This document shows positions 7,486 to 16,562 of a stretch of DNA of 64,000 nt, piece by piece. Positions within the stretch are counted from its first letter, which is position 1; each line of letters opens with the position of its first letter. Under the pieces are notes generated by a model. It worked only from the letters and a program-made list of their open reading frames with translations. It made no database searches and was not told the origin of the DNA. Position numbers and translations under genes: made by a program. Source of the stretch: Candidatus Fermentithermobacillaceae bacterium (GTDB taxonomy: Bacteria; Bacillota; Sulfobacillia; Fermentithermobacillales; Fermentithermobacillaceae). The DNA is taken from the NCBI GenBank assembly GCA_018052475.1, contig JAGPNG010000006.1:11071-75070 (forward strand), given 5' to 3'.

Positions 7486-7618
7486 GCATGGTCCGGCTAT
7501 TGTCCGAATGGCAATCATCAAGTAGCAGGATATTTCTAAGGGCCGTAGAATCAGGTACGAAATGCCCGGGGCATAGGATACAAAGTGGCAATAAACGTGT
7601 TCATTGGGGAGGTTTACC

Positions 7619-8326
7619 ATGACGGAAGCAAAAGATGAGTCGAAGGGCACTGACAAGCATACTCCTGATGCAAGCAGACCTTCATATCTCAGAGGTCCGC
7701 TGCCCAAAAAAGGCGATGCTGAAGCGAAAAGCGAATCTGAGAGCAAGACAGGTAAGGAGATTACCGGAGAGAGCATCCCCCAAGCAGCAAAACAAGAAAG
7801 AGAAGATGTTGAGTTGTACTCGTGGAAGGTTTGGCTCCTTCCGCTCCGTCCGGGCGTCTCTGCCCTAGTGGTAGCATCTGTAGCGGGTTGTATAGGGCTT
7901 GCTTACTGGGCGTTTCCCCAGTTCTTCTTCGTAGCTGTGATGACCCTTATACTTTTGAATAGGTTGGCCGTTTACTTGTTCCCGGTAAAATATGTGATTA
8001 CAGAGCAAACGGTTGGGTATAGGACCTTTTTGGCAAGGGATATCCGCCCTTGGGATAAATTCTTGACTTACTACCAGTTCCACGACGGCGTGCTCCTTTC
8101 ACACGATACGCGTACGGTGAGGGGACGAATGAAGCAGGGCATGTTCCTTTATTACTACCCCGATGGTTCAAACAAAGACAGGGTACTCGAGATAGTTTCC
8201 TCAAAACTCGCCATGCCTGAACGGGCGTTTAGTGAGAAAGATGAGCTCGTCAAAAAAGAGAAGAAGGAAAGAGGAGGGATCCGGGCCGCGATTGAGCGAA
8301 TTCGCAACATCAAACCCAAAGAATGA
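7619..8326 (+). CDS. Two-helix membrane protein with PH-like cytoplasmic domain, function unknown
   Basis: I do not recognise a named family. The 235-residue protein has a charged, low-complexity N-terminal tail (1-68, rich in K/E/S), two closely spaced hydrophobic helices (about 80-98 and 101-121), then a beta-rich segment (122-200). In that segment YVITEQTVGYRTFLARDIRPWDKF resembles bacterial PH-like domains that follow a membrane hairpin. The C-terminus is Lys/Arg-rich. Both tails should be cytoplasmic. GGGGAGG lies 6 bases before ATG 7619. It precedes the MutL-family gene by 96 bases on the same strand, so it may belong to that locus and could tether it to the membrane, which is inference. 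Confidence 0.75.
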   Translation: MTEAKDESKGTDKHTPDASRPSYLRGPLPKKGDAEAKSESESKTGKEITGESIPQAAKQEREDVELYSWKVWLLPLRPGVSALVVASVAGCIGLAYWAFPQFFFVAVMTLILLNRLAVYLFPVKYVITEQTVGYRTFLARDIRPWDKFLTYYQFHDGVLLSHDTRTVRGRMKQGMFLYYYPDGSNKDRVLEIVSSKLAMPERAFSEKDELVKKEKKERGGIRAAIERIRNIKPKE

Positions 8327-8422: not shown

Positions 8423-10354
8423 ATGGAAGAAATCCAGCGAAAGGAAGGCGTTGATAAAAAACCAGTAGAGTCTATCCTTGCCACCGACGTCGGGTCGACC
8501 ACTACTAAAGCCATACTTATCGAGAAACGTGGCGATGAATACCGATTGGTAACTCGTGGAGAAATGCCGACCACAGTTGAGGAACCATGGGAAGATGTCA
8601 TGATCGGCGTCAAGAAAGCAATTCGGCGCATCGAGGAGCTTATCGATAGGCCAATTCTGGATGAGTCAGGCAATTTGATTCGGCCCAAAGAAGGTGACAA
8701 GGGGGTAGATATCTACGTTTCGACATCATCCGCAGGTGGAGGATTGCAGATGATGGTTGCAGGATTGGTAAAGACAATAAGTGCTAGTTCAGCCCACCGT
8801 GCTGCCTTAGGTGCAGGTGCGGTTGTGTTGGATGTAATCTCGGTAGATGACGGTAGATCACAGTCGGAGCAGATCACCAGGATTACAGAATTGCGGCCTG
8901 ACATTATCCTCATGTCAGGTGGTGTAGATGGCGGCTCAGTTGCTTATATAGCGTCAATTGCCGAGATTATAAAACAAGCGAACCCGCAGCCGAGGTTTGG
9001 TGCGACGTACAAACTGCCACTAATATACGCAGGCAATAAAGACGCCCAAGACCTTGTCATGGAAATATGCGGGGCGGACATGGACGTGCACATAGTCGAG
9101 AATTTGAGGCCGCGGCACGATATTGAAAACTTGGGACCTGCCAGAGAAGCCATTCATGAGATTTTCATGAATCACGTCATGGCTCAGGCTCCGGGGTACG
9201 GAACTCTTATGGAATGGGTTGATACGACGATTATGCCCACTCCTGGTGCAGTGGGTAAACTTATTATGCTCCTTGCAGAACGGAATAATGAGAACATCAT
9301 AGGTGTAGACATTGGCGGCGCTACTACTGACGTGTTTTCAAACTTCGAGGACACTTTCACCAGGACGGTATCTGCTAACCTAGGTATGAGCTATTCTATT
9401 TGCAACGTTTTGGAAGAAGCAGGTTTCGATAACATTATGCGATGGGTACCTTTCGAGGTCGACCATTCTCGCATCTCTGACTGGGTTGCAAACAAGATGA
9501 TAAGACCTACTACAATTCCACAAACAATGTACCACCTAATAGTTGAACAGGCTATTGCCAGGGAAGCGCTTCGCCTTAGTTTTGAACACCACAAGAGTCT
9601 CGCCAAGAAGGTAGAAAAAGAAGAGGTAGGACTTCAGATTGCGGGTCGAAGCAAGGTAGCATCGGCCACCGGCCGCGACATAATAGACATGCTCCATCTT
9701 GATATGCTAGTCGGTTCAGGCGGAGCTCTTTCGCATGCTCCGCGACGACAACAGGCTGCTTTGATGCTCATCGATGCATTTGAGCCTTCAGGGGTAACCT
9801 ATCTAGCCGTAGACTCGATATTCATGATGCCCCACCTTGGTGTTCTTTCCTCGGTATACCCAGACATAGCTGCCGAGGTTTTCGACAAAGACTGTCTTGT
9901 AAGACTAGGGACCGTAATAGCCCCGGTTGGATCGTTCAAACGTGGTCAGGTGGCAGCTACGGTTAAGATGACCATGGAAGATGGCACTGTAGTGGAGCAC
10001 AAGGTTACAGGAGGAGAGCTCCAGGTTATACCGTTAGGGGTCGGTGAAACTGCCGTCTGCAGGATACAACCTCACGGCGGGAACATAGATGTAGGCGCTG
10101 GAAAAGGCAGGGCATTGGAGAAAGAGATCCACGGCGGTCTGGTCGGTGTCATCCTAGATGGTAGAGGACGTCCCCTGGAGTTACCCGAAGATAACGTGGA
10201 ACGAATCAATTTGCTCACATCTTGGATTCAAGGTATGAACGCGTACCCAATGGATGCAATTCGTGAGCTGCAAGAAAAGTATCCGGCAAAGAGCTCGGAA
10301 GGTGGAAAGGGAGGGAAGAAGCGTGGCGGACTTTTTAGCAGATTTGCCGACTAA
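8423..10354 (+). CDS. MutL/GlmL-family (PF13941-like) ASKHA ATPase, copy 1
   Basis: A 643-residue protein of the family annotated as glutamate mutase accessory protein GlmL/MutL. It has an actin/Hsp70-type ATPase fold: phosphate-1 loop TDVGSTTTKA (21-30), STSSAGGGLQMMVAGL, the MSGGVDGG segment, phosphate-2 loop GVDIGGATTDVF (294-305) and adenosine motif VGSGGALSHAPRR (about 430-443). In glutamate fermenters GlmL is a chaperone beside a B12-dependent mutase, but no mutase subunit occurs anywhere in this window. The C-terminus ends in a Gly/Lys-rich tail. The next gene starts inside this one (32-base overlap), so the partner is made with it. A close paralogue lies at 12333-14195. The actual client is unknown. 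Confidence 0.85.
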   Translation: MEEIQRKEGVDKKPVESILATDVGSTTTKAILIEKRGDEYRLVTRGEMPTTVEEPWEDVMIGVKKAIRRIEELIDRPILDESGNLIRPKEGDKGVDIYVSTSSAGGGLQMMVAGLVKTISASSAHRAALGAGAVVLDVISVDDGRSQSEQITRITELRPDIILMSGGVDGGSVAYIASIAEIIKQANPQPRFGATYKLPLIYAGNKDAQDLVMEICGADMDVHIVENLRPRHDIENLGPAREAIHEIFMNHVMAQAPGYGTLMEWVDTTIMPTPGAVGKLIMLLAERNNENIIGVDIGGATTDVFSNFEDTFTRTVSANLGMSYSICNVLEEAGFDNIMRWVPFEVDHSRISDWVANKMIRPTTIPQTMYHLIVEQAIAREALRLSFEHHKSLAKKVEKEEVGLQIAGRSKVASATGRDIIDMLHLDMLVGSGGALSHAPRRQQAALMLIDAFEPSGVTYLAVDSIFMMPHLGVLSSVYPDIAAEVFDKDCLVRLGTVIAPVGSFKRGQVAATVKMTMEDGTVVEHKVTGGELQVIPLGVGETAVCRIQPHGGNIDVGAGKGRALEKEIHGGLVGVILDGRGRPLELPEDNVERINLLTSWIQGMNAYPMDAIRELQEKYPAKSSEGGKGGKKRGGLFSRFAD

Positions 10355-11681
10355 CGTTAAAAACCAGATTACACTTGTTAGAAAAACTCGCAAGCTGCCT
10401 CTCCCAGGAGAAGTGCTTGTTAAAGTGGGGGATATAGTAAAACCTGATACACCGATAGCCAAGATAGCTGTGAAGCCTGGGATTCCCTGGGTCATACCTG
10501 CCGCTAGACTGTTGGGAGTCGAGCCGGCTCAGCTTTCGAAGAGTATGTTGAAAGAAATAGGCGATTCGGTTAAGACGAAAGAAGTCTTTGCCAGGGCGGA
10601 GCAGGGGCTATATGGTAGAAAAGAACTGGAATCTCCTACAGATGGCGTTATAGAGTCGATATCCGACCGGTCTGGAAGGGTAACTATACGCGAGGAATTT
10701 GGCAAAGAGGAGCCTCCTGTCACCTTCGATGTCGCCTTTGAGATTAAGTGTAAGCCCGAGGAATTGCCGCAACACATGCTAAGGACAGTGGGACAAGAGG
10801 TAAAGAAAGACCAGATGATCGCAAAAAAGGGCGAGGCTCAGGCTTTCTTTACTAAGACAGCGCTTGCGCCTGTATCCGGAATAATATCTGATATCGATAC
10901 CAAAACCGGAAAAGTCACCATTTCGCGTCCCTTCAGAGAAGTCATAGTCAACGCTTATATTGAGGGACGTGTTTCAGAAGTAATGGAAACGCGTGGATGT
11001 GTCATTGAGACGCCGGGGATCAAAATCAACGGTATTTTTGGCCTTGGCCGTGAGACCCATGGTGAGATCAGAGTGCTTGTAAATGGACCGGACCAAGTTC
11101 TAGAAGCTGACATGATAACCAGTGACTGCAAAGACAAGATAATCATCGGCGGCTCTTTTGCCACGAATGACGCCCTTTCAAAAGCCATAGAGGTTGGAGC
11201 CAAAGGAGTTGTAACAGGCACGGCGAACTACTTCAATCTCACTCAGTCGTTGGGCGTAAAACTCGGAATAGGCATTACGGGCCAAGAAGACATACCTCTA
11301 ACCGTAATTCTCATGGAAGGCTTTGGGCACCTAAACATGAGAAGGGAAGTATGGGAAACCCTGGCGGCTCTTGAGGGAATGACGGCGTCTATGAATGGTG
11401 CAACTCAGATCAGAGCGGGAGCTATAAGACCCGAGATAATCGTTTCGTTCTTTGGTTATGAAGGCGAATTAGCTAAGCCGGTGCGGTACGATATCGATCT
11501 GAAGCAAGGTGCAGAAATACGGATCGTAAGCGAGCCTTACTTTGGTGCGGTAGGGACTATTGCGGAAATTACAAAAGAGCCCATGATGATAGAGACCGAA
11601 GCAAAAGTGCCGGTCGTCAAAGTACTGCTTGCAAATGGCGAACAAGTTGTGGTGCCAAGGGCAAACGTAGAGATGTTGTAA
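10323..11681 (+). CDS. Barrel-sandwich/KOW protein partner of MutL-family ATPase, copy 1 (duplicated barrel)
   Basis: No named family is recognised. The 452-residue protein starts KTRKLPLPGEVLVKVGD, a lipoyl/barrel-sandwich-like strand pattern with the usual valine-gly-asp turn. It has a second such unit (about 65-145: SPTDGVIESISDRSG) and a third (about 150-225: APVSGIISDIDTKTG), then a conserved core (GIFGLGRETHGE, GGSFATNDAL, GQEDIPLTVILMEGFG, NGATQIRAG). A KOW-like C-terminus ends VVVPRANVEML. No biotin/lipoyl-type Met-Lys is present. Compared with copy 2 it carries one extra barrel unit of about 78 residues. Start GTG 10323 has AAAGGGAGGG 7 bases upstream; the longer frame reading has no such site. 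It overlaps the ATPase gene by 32 bases. Confidence 0.8.
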   Translation: MADFLADLPTNVKNQITLVRKTRKLPLPGEVLVKVGDIVKPDTPIAKIAVKPGIPWVIPAARLLGVEPAQLSKSMLKEIGDSVKTKEVFARAEQGLYGRKELESPTDGVIESISDRSGRVTIREEFGKEEPPVTFDVAFEIKCKPEELPQHMLRTVGQEVKKDQMIAKKGEAQAFFTKTALAPVSGIISDIDTKTGKVTISRPFREVIVNAYIEGRVSEVMETRGCVIETPGIKINGIFGLGRETHGEIRVLVNGPDQVLEADMITSDCKDKIIIGGSFATNDALSKAIEVGAKGVVTGTANYFNLTQSLGVKLGIGITGQEDIPLTVILMEGFGHLNMRREVWETLAALEGMTASMNGATQIRAGAIRPEIIVSFFGYEGELAKPVRYDIDLKQGAEIRIVSEPYFGAVGTIAEITKEPMMIETEAKVPVVKVLLANGEQVVVPRANVEML

Positions 11682-11819: not shown

Positions 11820-12242
11820 ATGCTGAAATTTCATGAGCCAATTGACGAATCTAGACGGGATGAGATCATAGAAGCTATTGCGGCTCGGATTGTGCAGTTC
11901 GGAATGACAGTTCCTGCGATCTTCTTTCTCGAGATGAACAAGCCCCTCAGTTATTTTGGAGGACAGGCCATGCACTTTTTTGCGCCTATCGTTGGCGTGT
12001 TTTTTGAGACTTTCGAAGACTATGCCTACTTTTTCGATCAGCGAGATAATGTGGAACTTTTGATTCAGCGCCTTGAACTCGCAGCTATGGAGGAAGAAGC
12101 TGAACGCAAAGCGGAAAAGGAAAGCAAAAAGAAAGCAAAGCAATTAAGGAGAGCTAAGAAGGGTTCCATGATAGACGAGGCCTTGAAAATGGATAGCGAT
12201 AAGAGTAGCGGATCCAAACCAGAGGAAACAATTGAAAATTAG
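11820..12242 (+). CDS. Small conserved-looking protein between the two ATPase modules, function unknown
   Basis: The 140-residue protein is not assigned to a named family. Residues 1-25 form an acidic/basic helix (MLKFHEPIDESRRDEIIEAI). Residues 27-70 are rich in Phe, Pro and Gly with short hydrophobic runs (VPAIFFLEMNKPLSYFGG, HFFAPIVGVFF), too broken for an ordinary transmembrane helix but suited to membrane or protein contact. Residues 75-125 form a strongly charged Lys/Glu helix. GGAGGAGGT sits about 7 bases before the ATG, an excellent ribosome site. Placement exactly between two copies of the ATPase/barrel pair, all on one strand, suggests a shared role. Confidence 0.8.
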   Translation: MLKFHEPIDESRRDEIIEAIAARIVQFGMTVPAIFFLEMNKPLSYFGGQAMHFFAPIVGVFFETFEDYAYFFDQRDNVELLIQRLELAAMEEEAERKAEKESKKKAKQLRRAKKGSMIDEALKMDSDKSSGSKPEETIEN

Positions 12243-12332
12243 TCGAAGACTAAGAGGATTTAAAGACCAGATGTCGTAGTTTATATGTTAGGTATTTACG
12301 CTACATGTGGCAGCGAGGGAGGGGAAGAGTTC

Positions 12333-14195
12333 GTGCAGGAAGAAAAAACTGCGTTCACGCCAGATACAGAAATCAATACTGTTCTGGCCACCGACTGCGG
12401 TTCGACTACAACAAAAGCTATCCTCATCGAGAAGGTTGAAGACGAGTATCGCCTTATTGTAAGGGGAGAGGCACCAACCACAGTAGAGGCACCTTTTGAA
12501 GATGTTACAATGGGTGCGAGAAACGCCATCAGAGAGATCGAGGAACTTACGGGTAGGCGTTTTTTGAGTGACACAGGAGTTATTACTCCTAGACAACCGG
12601 ATGGGTCAGGTGCCGACATCTTCATGTCAACGTCTTCTGCAGGCGGAGGATTGCAGATGATGGTAGCTGGCGTTGTCAAGACTATGACCGCAGAATCGGC
12701 AGCGAGAGCCGCTCTTGGAGCAGGCGCAATAGTAATGGATGTTATTTCAGTCGATGACGGAAGAAAACCTCACGAGAAAATCCAAAGAATCCGGCATCTG
12801 AGACCGGATATGATCCTTCTTTCCGGGGGGATCGACGGGGGCACAATAACACACGTTGTTGAGATTGCAGAGCTTATTTCTGCCGCCGAACCCAAGCCGA
12901 GACTTGGGATAGGGTATAAGCTACCTGTAATCTATGCCGGGAATAAACATGCGAGAAAGCATATCGAAGAGATCCTTGGCGAAAAAACAGACCTCAGGGT
13001 AGTAGATAACCTAAGACCTGTTTTGGAGAGAGAGGTCCTTGGGCCTGCCAGGGAAGCTATCCACAATCTTTTCATGGAACACGTTATGGCGCAGGCACCT
13101 GGGTATAATAAGCTTATGACCTGGACGCCTGTTCCTATAATGCCGACTCCTGGTGCTGTGGGTAACTGCATGCAAACAGCAGCCAAAGAGTATGACATGA
13201 GCGTTATAGGTGTCGATATCGGAGGAGCCACTACTGACGTGTTTTCAGTGTTTGGAGACTTCTTCAATAGAACCGTATCGGCAAACCTAGGGATGAGTTA
13301 TTCGATTTGCAACGTGCTTCTCGAGGCGGGAATGGCTAATATTTCGAGATGGATCCCGTTTTCCATTGATGAAGCAGACCTCAGAAATAGGATCAGGAAT
13401 AAGATGATCCGTCCTACCACGATTCCACAGACTCTAGACGACCTTATACTCGAGCAAGGAATTGCCCGTGAGGCCCTTCGCCTTGCATTTGTTCACCACA
13501 AGAGCCTTGCTGTAGGCTTGAGAGGTGTTCACAAGGAAAGGACCATTGGCGATACGTTTGAGCAATCGGGTTCAGGAGAAACATACATCAACATGGCAGA
13601 TCTGGGCATGTTGATTGGATCGGGAGGGACGCTTTCTCACGCACCTAGGCGTGCACAAGCTGCAATGATGCTGTTGGATGCGTTCCAACCAGAAGCTGAG
13701 ACCATGCTGGCAGTTGACTCCATTTTCATGATGCCGCAACTGGGGATTCTTGCTTCGGTTCATCCTAAAGCAGCGATGCAAGTCTTTGACAGAGACTGTC
13801 TGGTAAAACTAGGCACCTCCATTGCTCCAATAGGTCCTAGCGGCAACCTGCAATTCGGAGAGCCATGTGTCACAGTGACAATTGACTACAACGGTGAGAC
13901 TATCGAGGAATCTGTTCCTTACGGTTCAATGAAAGTCGTAAAGATTCCTGAAAACGTCACGGTTGATGCAGTTATTCATCCTACAAGGCAGTTTGATGTA
14001 GGCAAGGGGCACGGGCGTGTTGTTGAAACCAAGGTAAACGGCGGCGTAGTTGGAGTAGTGATAGACTGCCGTGGACGTCCTCTCGCCCTTCCCGATGATC
14101 CGATTTTGAGAAGTCAGAAACTGTTAGAGTGGTTTACGGCTATGGACATGTATCCGGCAGATGTACTTAAGAAATATGCGGACAAAGGCATATAG
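12333..14195 (+). CDS. MutL/GlmL-family (PF13941-like) ASKHA ATPase, copy 2
   Basis: A 620-residue paralogue of the gene at 8423, readily alignable over its whole length. It has phosphate-1 TDCGSTTTKA near the N-terminus, MSTSSAGGGLQMMVAGVVK, SGGIDGG, GVDIGGATTDVF (293-304) and IGSGGTLSHAPRR. Both copies keep every nucleotide-binding loop, so both should bind ATP. Copy 2 has an insert at about 400-415 and lacks the Gly/Lys tail. GTG 12333 is chosen over ATG 12285 because GGGAGGGGAAG lies just upstream and it gives the same N-terminal length as copy 1. The barrel partner begins 17 bases after the stop. No mutase subunit accompanies it. Confidence 0.85.
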   Translation: MQEEKTAFTPDTEINTVLATDCGSTTTKAILIEKVEDEYRLIVRGEAPTTVEAPFEDVTMGARNAIREIEELTGRRFLSDTGVITPRQPDGSGADIFMSTSSAGGGLQMMVAGVVKTMTAESAARAALGAGAIVMDVISVDDGRKPHEKIQRIRHLRPDMILLSGGIDGGTITHVVEIAELISAAEPKPRLGIGYKLPVIYAGNKHARKHIEEILGEKTDLRVVDNLRPVLEREVLGPAREAIHNLFMEHVMAQAPGYNKLMTWTPVPIMPTPGAVGNCMQTAAKEYDMSVIGVDIGGATTDVFSVFGDFFNRTVSANLGMSYSICNVLLEAGMANISRWIPFSIDEADLRNRIRNKMIRPTTIPQTLDDLILEQGIAREALRLAFVHHKSLAVGLRGVHKERTIGDTFEQSGSGETYINMADLGMLIGSGGTLSHAPRRAQAAMMLLDAFQPEAETMLAVDSIFMMPQLGILASVHPKAAMQVFDRDCLVKLGTSIAPIGPSGNLQFGEPCVTVTIDYNGETIEESVPYGSMKVVKIPENVTVDAVIHPTRQFDVGKGHGRVVETKVNGGVVGVVIDCRGRPLALPDDPILRSQKLLEWFTAMDMYPADVLKKYADKGI

Positions 14196-14212: not shown

Positions 14213-15337
14213 ATGGCACACGCATATACACCAGGGCTAAAAGTTACGGAAAAGGCGGTTATTAGAAAGACCCGGCGCCTTCCTATCCTCGGCGAAGTTT
14301 TGGTTGAAAAGGGGCAGAAAGTTTCGCCCAGCACAGTTGTAGCGAGAACCAGTATTCCGGGCAATCCGCAGACTGTTAATGTCGCCAATATTCTAGGTGT
14401 AGAACCCGAAGATGTTGTGGAATACATGCTAAAAAAAGAAGGCGACTATGTTCACCAAGGAGAGATCTTGGCACAGTATAGTTCTTTCTTTGGTCTTTTC
14501 AAGCGTGAGGCAAGGTCGCCGGTAGAGGGCACAATAGAGATGATCTCGAAGGTTACCGGGCAGGTAACCCTCAGAGAACCTCCGATTCCCGTTGAGGTCG
14601 ACGCCTATATCGAAGGCGTGGTCGAGGAAGTGTTGCCAAGAGAGGGCGTAGTCGTTCTCACAGAGGGTGCCTTTATACAGGGGATTTTCGGTGTAGGCGG
14701 CGAGACGAATGGGGTAGTACGGGTGGCAGTCGAGTCTCCTAGCGATGTACTTGAAGCTTCCCACATAAAGAGCGACGATGCAGATAAAGTGTTGGTCGGT
14801 GGTTCGCTCGTGACAGCAGATGCAATTAAAAAGGCGGGCGAGGTAGGGGCTCGAGGTATTGTGGCAGGTGGTATCATAGACCATGACTTAGTTGAGTATC
14901 TGGGCTTCGATATTGGAGTCGCCATTACAGGTCACGAGGATGTTCCTGTTACTGTCATCATCACCGAAGGTTTCGGACAAATGAGGATGGCAGATAGGAC
15001 TTTTTCTCTTCTCCAAAAACTCAGCGGATTCAAAGCCTGTATCAACGGTGCTACACAGATTAGGGCGGGGGTCATGCGACCCGAGATAATAGTCCCAGGA
15101 TATCAGGCAAGCTCCTCAGGAGCTGATGACCAGGATTTGGCTCAAGGGTTGGTTGTCGGAACGCCAATAAGGATTATTAGAGAGCCCTACTTTGGTCTGT
15201 TGGCTGAGGTTGTCGAATTGCCGCCTGAGCTTCAGGTTATTGAGTCTGAGTCTAAAGTCAGAATTCTCAAAGCTAAGCTGGAGGATGGAACCATAGTTAC
15301 TGTTCCACGGGCAAACGTTGAGATAATCGAAGCTTAA
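14213..15337 (+). CDS. Barrel-sandwich/KOW protein partner of MutL-family ATPase, copy 2
   Basis: A 374-residue paralogue of the protein at 10323. It has the first barrel segment (KTRRLPILGEVLVEKGQ), one further barrel unit (ARSPVEGTIEMISKVTG), the conserved core (GIFGVGGETNG, GGSLVTADAIKKAGEVGARG, TGHEDVPVTVIITEGFG, NGATQIRAG) and the KOW-like end (VVPRANVEII equivalent, here TVPRANVEII). It lacks the extra barrel of copy 1, which may be the ancestral state. No signal peptide or membrane helix is seen, so it should be cytoplasmic unless recruited by the upstream membrane protein. GGAAGGAG lies 5 bases before ATG. It is the last gene of the locus; a strong terminator follows. Confidence 0.8.
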   Translation: MAHAYTPGLKVTEKAVIRKTRRLPILGEVLVEKGQKVSPSTVVARTSIPGNPQTVNVANILGVEPEDVVEYMLKKEGDYVHQGEILAQYSSFFGLFKREARSPVEGTIEMISKVTGQVTLREPPIPVEVDAYIEGVVEEVLPREGVVVLTEGAFIQGIFGVGGETNGVVRVAVESPSDVLEASHIKSDDADKVLVGGSLVTADAIKKAGEVGARGIVAGGIIDHDLVEYLGFDIGVAITGHEDVPVTVIITEGFGQMRMADRTFSLLQKLSGFKACINGATQIRAGVMRPEIIVPGYQASSSGADDQDLAQGLVVGTPIRIIREPYFGLLAEVVELPPELQVIESESKVRILKAKLEDGTIVTVPRANVEIIEA

Positions 15338-15611: not shown

Positions 15612-16562
15612 ATGGAATACCAAATTGTGCAGGAGTTTATGGAGGAATCTGCAATACCTCTGGGATGCAAGTTTGACGACTTCTTGCCCGTTGTTTTAGA
15701 TGTGCGTAAGGCTGCACAGATCATAGTACCTGCTGAATTACCAGATGCCGCCATTCTTGGTGCTACCATAGATAGTCGATTTCGCAACGAAATAGAAGGC
15801 AAGAAGAGTTTCGGGGAGTCTTTTAGCAACTACGTGAAAAAGAAAGCAGGAAGACTTGGACGAGACGACAAAGTGAAAGAAGCTCGAATGAAGACCGAAC
15901 TTTTGAGAGAACTCTATACAAAGGTGGTCGAGGGTTCGGTTTCCTACAACCTATATATGGACTGGATCGACAGACTGGGACTTCAGAAAAAGATACTAGA
16001 ATCTCGGCCGACTATACGGGAAGTGTACATTTTCAAGGATGATTCAGTATCGGTTGAATTAGAAGAATTGCAGGACATGCGCAAGGATATAAGGTGGGAA
16101 GCGTGGCGATACCCAAATATCTCCGCGCCTGTGTCATTGCGAGCGTTCCCTGAAGAAAGCAACCCTGCATTTTTAAGAAAGATCGGAGACATACTTGGCT
16201 TTCCTGCCTGTTGCATAGATAGGTATATCTTCGATAGGGGTTCTGCGGTCCTGAGTCCCGAAGTAAGGGCTGCCAACCAGATAATACATGCTGAGAGCCC
16301 CGAAGAAGTGAACAAGTTTGCTTACTTTACGAAAGATTTCTTCCCGTGCCAGCCAGACTGCGAGTCAGCTGTACAAATAGGAAAGGCTATGTATGAGAAA
16401 CTCAAAGATATTAGTCCAGAATTAGGGGAACTATATTTGAAGCACCTAAGTGACAACTTAGAACTGGTCAGAAGATATCCTGAAATCATAGAAGAGAGAA
16501 TAAGGAGCCTGGAAAGCCAGAGTCATAGAGAAGAAGGGGATCACGTTGACGACAAAGAGTGA
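15612..16562 (+). CDS. DUF483-like cysteine-motif protein
   Basis: The 316-residue protein is best matched, from memory, to DUF483-type proteins. It has LGFPACCIDRY near residues 197-207 and FFPCQPDCESA near 245-255, two cysteine pairs that could bind a metal or Fe-S cluster. The rest is helical and charged, with no signal peptide or membrane helix. The function is not known. Its stop lies 17 bases inside the uracil-DNA glycosylase reading frame start, so the two are translationally coupled, which hints at a nucleic-acid role; this is inference. It opens the operon that runs through tsaE, tsaB and rimI. ATG 15612 is the first start; its ribosome site is weak. Confidence 0.65.
   Translation: MEYQIVQEFMEESAIPLGCKFDDFLPVVLDVRKAAQIIVPAELPDAAILGATIDSRFRNEIEGKKSFGESFSNYVKKKAGRLGRDDKVKEARMKTELLRELYTKVVEGSVSYNLYMDWIDRLGLQKKILESRPTIREVYIFKDDSVSVELEELQDMRKDIRWEAWRYPNISAPVSLRAFPEESNPAFLRKIGDILGFPACCIDRYIFDRGSAVLSPEVRAANQIIHAESPEEVNKFAYFTKDFFPCQPDCESAVQIGKAMYEKLKDISPELGELYLKHLSDNLELVRRYPEIIEERIRSLESQSHREEGDHVDDKE

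Follow-up and report, generated by a model that had tools for sequence, protein, structure and literature searches.

The window, i.e. the whole 64,000-nucleotide stretch of contig JAGPNG010000006.1 from a Candidatus Fermentithermobacillaceae bacterium (nearest named relative a Candidatus Fermentithermobacillaceae genome, at 92% identity), carries two genes for paralogous barrel proteins, hereafter copy 1 and copy 2, each paired with its own gene for a MutL-type (PF13941) putative ATPase. All four lie on the forward strand: the ATPase gene at 8423..10354 (643 residues) goes with copy 1 (10323..11681, GTG start, 452 residues), and the one at 12285..14195 (636 residues) with copy 2 (14213..15337, 374 residues). 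Copy 1 is thus 78 residues longer, and it is the nature of this surplus, attributed by the original prediction to one further SPTDG/APVSG-type barrel unit followed by a turn, that is considered here. Regarding the start of copy 1, GTG at 10323 appears a better start than ATG at 10254, because the stretch AGGGAGGG stands directly 5' of it and because the N-terminus read from there aligns with the N-termini of relatives; with this start, the first 32 bases of copy 1 (10323-10354) coincide with the 3' end of its MutL-type neighbour, an overlap through which the translation of both genes may be coupled. Along copy 1 there follow one another unit 1 (10500..10730, residues about 60-136), which keeps the conserved polar residues of the family, unit 2 as the extra copy (10731..10952, residues about 137-210), a central swivelling beta/beta/alpha domain of predicted RraA or phosphohistidine-swivel-like fold (11016..11450, residues about 232-376) and a C-terminal KOW/Tudor-like domain of predicted NusG C-terminal-like fold (11490..11678, residues about 390-452). 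The single unit of copy 2 is encoded at 14366..14581 (residues about 52-123).

In pairwise comparison, the two paralogues match along their N-terminal strand region, in one unit and throughout the C-terminal part, and the surplus stretch of copy 1 sits between the unit and the core. Self-alignment of copy 1 brings residues 67-126 onto 144-204 with a score of 88, which none of 1000 comparisons with shuffled second halves reaches (28.5±5.1, maximum 63), and 19 of the 60 aligned residues are identical. The motifs named in the original prediction occur, as SPTDG...DRSG and APVSG...DTKTG. So as to avoid circularity, a unit profile was built on 55 one-unit proteins, all from other organisms and none from the window; it matches copy 1 twice, at residues 64-125 (independent E-value, i-E, 3.5e-17) and 143-207 (i-E 1.4e-13), and copy 2 once, at residues 61-129 (i-E 3.7e-35). 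Residues 135-212 of copy 1 taken alone still score 43.5 bits, the best of 1894 scored shuffles (2000 made) attaining 9.8. Copy 1 consequently holds two tandem stretches alike above chance, i.e. a tandem internal repeat with a unit of about 77 residues, as had been predicted. The two units are only 41% identical in DNA and therefore do not stem from a recent duplication; an assembly artefact was likewise rejected, given this identity and the recurrence of the two-unit form in other genomes.

The AlphaFold models lead to the same picture. For copy 1 (mean predicted local distance difference test, pLDDT, 87.2; predicted template modelling score, pTM, 0.60), the alignment of 41 rows held few that span unit 2 fully, MAFFT having spread the one unit of most sequences across units 1 and 2; for copy 2, pLDDT is 87.2 and pTM 0.69. 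In the copy 1 model, unit 1 comprises helices 60-64 and 68-74 and strands 88-103, 108-113, 119-123 and 133-136, and unit 2 comprises helices 137-140 and 145-151 and strands 165-181, 186-192, 197-201 and 205-210, so that the order of helices and strands recurs 77-78 residues further on; within unit 2, block means of pLDDT range from 74 to 96. The model of copy 2 shows this order once. Judged by secondary-structure order, both units of copy 1 are predicted to fold alike. Taken by itself, the one unit of copy 2 is enough to cover the DUF2118 protein 3d4r (Z 8.2, 2.3 Å, 63 aligned residues), the fold of which we take to be of the barrel-sandwich/lipoyl type, and this coverage suggests that one unit is a complete small barrel and not a half-barrel.

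Among known domains, the GDxV...SPxxG...G pattern of the units is shared with the N-terminal barrel-sandwich of RnfC (PF13375) and with biotinyl/lipoyl domains; the PF13375 profile matches both copies weakly, below its gathering cut-off of 25.6 bits (24.6 for copy 1, 15.0 for copy 2). Biotinyl/lipoyl carrier domains bear a modifiable lysine in a hairpin, within an EAMKM-like motif. The barrel units lack a lysine motif of the EAMKM type, and no invariant lysine lies between GDxV and SPxxG in the 92 one-unit rows of the family, where the best hairpin columns hold lysine at frequencies of 0.54 and 0.71. Unlike RnfC_N or lipoyl domains, moreover, the barrel proteins continue with swivelling and KOW-like domains, after tandem units in the case of copy 1. 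The best Foldseek match of both models is NusG from Thermotoga maritima (2xhc; E 4.9e-6 and 8.6e-5), but the full-length match is not one superposition (root-mean-square deviation 28 and 20 Å) and the likeness holds domain by domain; given this and the deviation of 28 Å, copy 1 is not put forward as a whole-protein homologue of NusG. The C-terminal domain of copy 1 fits that of NusG 1m1g_D (Z 9.4, 1.3 Å, 54 aligned residues), its sequence match to the Pfam KOW family being weak (E 0.29), and neither copy has a Pfam NGN match, a domain which the structure searches leave possible. The central domain resembles RraA 1j3l_A (Z 10.2, 4.3 Å, 132 aligned residues) and the phosphohistidine-type swivelling domain 5fbu (Z 9.9, 2.6 Å, 105 aligned residues), a likeness limited to that domain and to 13-16% identity. 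A sequence search of the PDB gave no relative (best E 0.18).

The duplication is not peculiar to copy 1. The claim that only copy 1 has it holds inside the window and fails across the genome, where a third paralogue of 477 residues (G000:C23, L068:10583-12016) also has two units and forms with its own upstream MutL-type gene a third MutL-barrel pair (L068:8778-12016). This third pair adjoins guaB-like and purine-synthesis-like genes, and further genomes of the family show a similar setting. From 131 open reading frames (ORFs) of the barrel family, 114 non-redundant proteins were retained after dropping repeat loci and identical rows, with one unit in 92 and two in 22. A WOR-3 genome supplies one of the two-unit proteins; the other 21 belong to the window's own class, where they make up two paralogous lineages in 13 genomes. 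This count of full two-unit proteins in 13 genomes, out of the 36 of the class that bear a barrel, takes in G000, G002 (as L011) and 11 more. The one-unit form prevails outside the class, with 55 of 56 proteins, in Planctomycetota, Elusimicrobiota, Gemmatimonadota, Latescibacterota, Poribacteria, Bathyarchaeota and others, and copy 2 groups with this form present in other phyla. Barrel proteins from Bathyarchaeota (about 293-308 residues) and the two-unit WOR-3 protein stop before the KOW-like domain (L047:5941-7101, L056, L058, L061).

Whether the second unit is equivalent to the first can be approached through 20 positions, each kept in at least 80% of the 92 one-unit rows (unit-profile numbering). 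On average, unit 1 keeps 70% and unit 2 47% of them in the copy-1 group, and 65% and 52%, respectively, in the third-paralogue group, which includes the WOR-3 row. Since both units have the same predicted fold in tandem and both keep a glycine/proline/alanine frame (G17, A27, P43, G46 and G56), unit 2 could be thought to double an equivalent binding site, copy 1 then holding two clients or ATPase contacts simultaneously, against one for copy 2, in line with the original proposal that the paralogues differ in the number of sites they offer. They do differ by one unit, but more sites of an equal kind find no support in the polar positions E24, S42, E49, S52 and R61, conserved in 85-98% of one-unit proteins: in the copy-1 group these are kept at 60-100% in unit 1 and at 0-10% in unit 2, and in unit 2 of the third paralogue at 0, 50, 58, 8 and 8%, respectively. 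This loss, together with just 19 of 60 residues shared between the units, speaks against a doubled site, which we consider quite unlikely, and unit 2 would rather be a changed copy than a second equal site. Three details fit this less well, namely the survival of S42 and E49 in 50-58% of the third-paralogue unit 2 rows, the retention of T55 by unit 2 and not by unit 1, and the loss of P64 and P66 in both units of copy 1. The loss of functional-looking polar residues with retention of fold-determining ones would also suit a neutral spacer, i.e. a harmless old insertion making no contact of its own; however, the two-unit form is found in 21 proteins of the class across two paralogous lineages and 13 genomes, and in the copy-1 lineage some columns of unit 2, e.g. 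K28, K29, G30, A34 and T37, are conserved in their own right, at 100% of ten rows, which makes such a spacer unlikely. By these comparisons of sequence, unit 2 appears to be neither a simple duplicate of the unit 1 site nor plainly a neutral spacer.

As to the history of the repeat, a tree of the core of 93 of the 114 sequences, with the units left out, requires a single change in unit number (shuffled mean 19.9). In a tree of 88 of the 136 units, one branch (support 92.7) leaves all 22 second units together on the same side, and a single clade of first units is not rejected (approximately unbiased test, p-AU 0.758). Besides, unit 1 is closer than unit 2 to the one-unit proteins in 20 of 22 rows (0.42 vs. 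0.29 in the window). The simplest reading would be a single old tandem duplication that took place before the copy-1 and third-paralogue lineages split. Some weight has to be given to the opposite side: the branch for a single origin on the core tree has a support of only 31; the partner ATPase tree (56 of 102 pairs and one outgroup, after thinning of close kin and of rows under 500 residues) needs three changes, though no more than one is forced by starred branches; five of the one-unit rows from the class have diverged far; and gain and loss are indistinguishable on an unrooted tree.

The barrel proteins are closely tied to their putative ATPases, a MutL gene lying directly upstream on the same strand in 102 of the 110 barrel genes with enough upstream DNA. 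The two ATPases of the window match PF13941 with 415.8 and 417.6 bits, against a cut-off of 27, and their best NCBIfam models are GlmL and Or-4, accessory proteins with which they share this domain. It could follow that the MutL-barrel pairs are chaperones of B12-dependent mutases like GlmL/Or-4, the barrel copies discriminating between mutase clients. Yet both ATPases stay far under the cut-offs of these models, the partner of copy 1 scoring 236.2 against 475 for GlmL and 228.7 against 600 for Or-4, and that of copy 2 222.9 and 206.5, respectively. They are also longer, with 636-643 residues vs. 453 for the short MutL of the same genome and about 150 residues beyond the MutL domain in the partner of copy 1. 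No B12 mutase was recognised, by reading, among the ORFs beside the three MutL-barrel pairs, whereas the genome's aminomutase-like cluster elsewhere, the genes of which were likewise recognised by reading, comes with a short MutL gene of its own and no barrel. Unlike GlmL/Or-4, the barrel-partner ATPases travel with the barrel gene and DUF6754 and not with mutase genes, and a role as mutase chaperones is very unlikely.

What the barrel gene tracks instead is a membrane cassette of four genes, encoding a DUF6754 protein (PF20539), two multi-transmembrane proteins and a protein with a soluble part between two transmembrane segments. Several genera of the class, as well as other phyla, have this cassette next to the MutL-barrel pair; all four genes are found within the fetched flanks of 16 of the 56 out-of-class loci, and in G040, G058 and G059 the cassette comes directly before the copy-1 pair. 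Among 61 genomes of the class, 33 have both the barrel and DUF6754, three the barrel only, none DUF6754 only and 25 neither (Fisher 3.7e-14; by family 1.5e-8), and outside the class DUF6754 is found in 19 of the 20 barrel genomes examined and in none of 14 controls. The MutL-barrel pair would most likely be an assembly or energising factor for the DUF6754 cassette, the two sharing operons and genomes. This attribution is tempered by the fact that the tests of co-occurrence ignore kinship, by the three class genomes carrying the barrel without DUF6754 and by the window's own genome (1.4 Mb), where all 11 scattered cassettes (on C4, C5, C9, C11, C14, C16 and C23; loci L140-L149) are more than 10 kb away from any MutL-barrel pair. 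The proteins flanking the cassettes in this genome are mutually unrelated (TldD/PmbA, tRNA methyl transferase family, GH4, radical SAM, PurD-type, LytR-type and others), with no dedicated substrate-binding protein among the 20 scanned. An anti-phage defence system was considered and rejected, PADLOC returning no match for 8 proteins. As judged from search listings, no paper was found that names DUF6754, PF20539 or PF13941, and the literature on GlmL/MutL, glutamate mutase and barrel-sandwich domains gave nothing on the MutL-barrel pair.

Overall, the best explanation, which we hold to be somewhat more probable than its alternatives taken together, is that of a two-barrel adaptor arisen by one old duplication, with an altered unit 2 and an action on the DUF6754 cassette. 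Copy 1 would act as a soluble adaptor in which tandem small barrel-sandwich (lipoyl-like) domains are followed by swivelling and KOW-like domains, and the MutL-type ATPase encoded directly upstream would be its fixed partner. The two-unit form would have arisen from the widespread one-unit form through one tandem duplication of a complete barrel domain, at a time preceding both the diversification of the class and the separation of the copy-1 and third-paralogue lineages. Unit 1 would retain the ancestral conserved surface, probably contacting the ATPase or the core, while unit 2 would retain the fold with a different surface and most likely lengthen the adaptor and add a second, different contact. 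The genome contains three complete ATPase-adaptor pairs and one partial ATPase gene at a contig edge for its eleven DUF6754 cassettes. In group II energy-coupling factor (ECF) transporters, the energising module is shared. By analogy, the MutL-barrel pairs might be shared cytosolic drive or assembly units for undescribed four-subunit DUF6754 machines, the extra barrel letting few pairs serve many complexes, but this is a speculative and rather improbable extension.

In terms of significance, the finding is best described as a real, old duplication of a single domain in the adaptor of an uncharacterised, putative ATPase-membrane system. As an evolutionary event the repeat is nothing unusual, yet it offers a clean natural comparison, with one- and two-barrel paralogues, each with its own ATPase, at one locus. 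The wider setting matters more, and the system around the duplication is the more interesting find: a MutL-type ATPase, an adaptor and a DUF6754 cassette occur together from Bathyarchaeota to Planctomycetota, and a testable first role can be proposed for a protein pair whose ATPase bears the name of a mutase accessory protein.

Around the two pairs of the window, other genes deserve mention. Between them, at 11820..12242 on the forward strand, a small conserved protein of unknown family is encoded, relatives of which recur beside MutL-barrel pairs (a 27-locus cluster). Ahead of the first pair, a protein with two transmembrane segments is encoded at 7604..8326 (forward strand); in other genera of the class, its relatives immediately precede the DUF6754 cassette and the copy-1 pair. 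The partial ATPase gene of the same genome (L070:3-449, on G000:C12) is the beginning of one more MutL-type gene, located at the edge of its contig, and adjoins ABC transporter genes, relatives of which are also found beside MutL-barrel pairs in G003 and G009. Downstream of copy 2, positions 15612-16562 of the window encode a conserved protein with a DUF483 match of 24.5 bits, against a cut-off of 25, which is present in five of the loci that were clustered.

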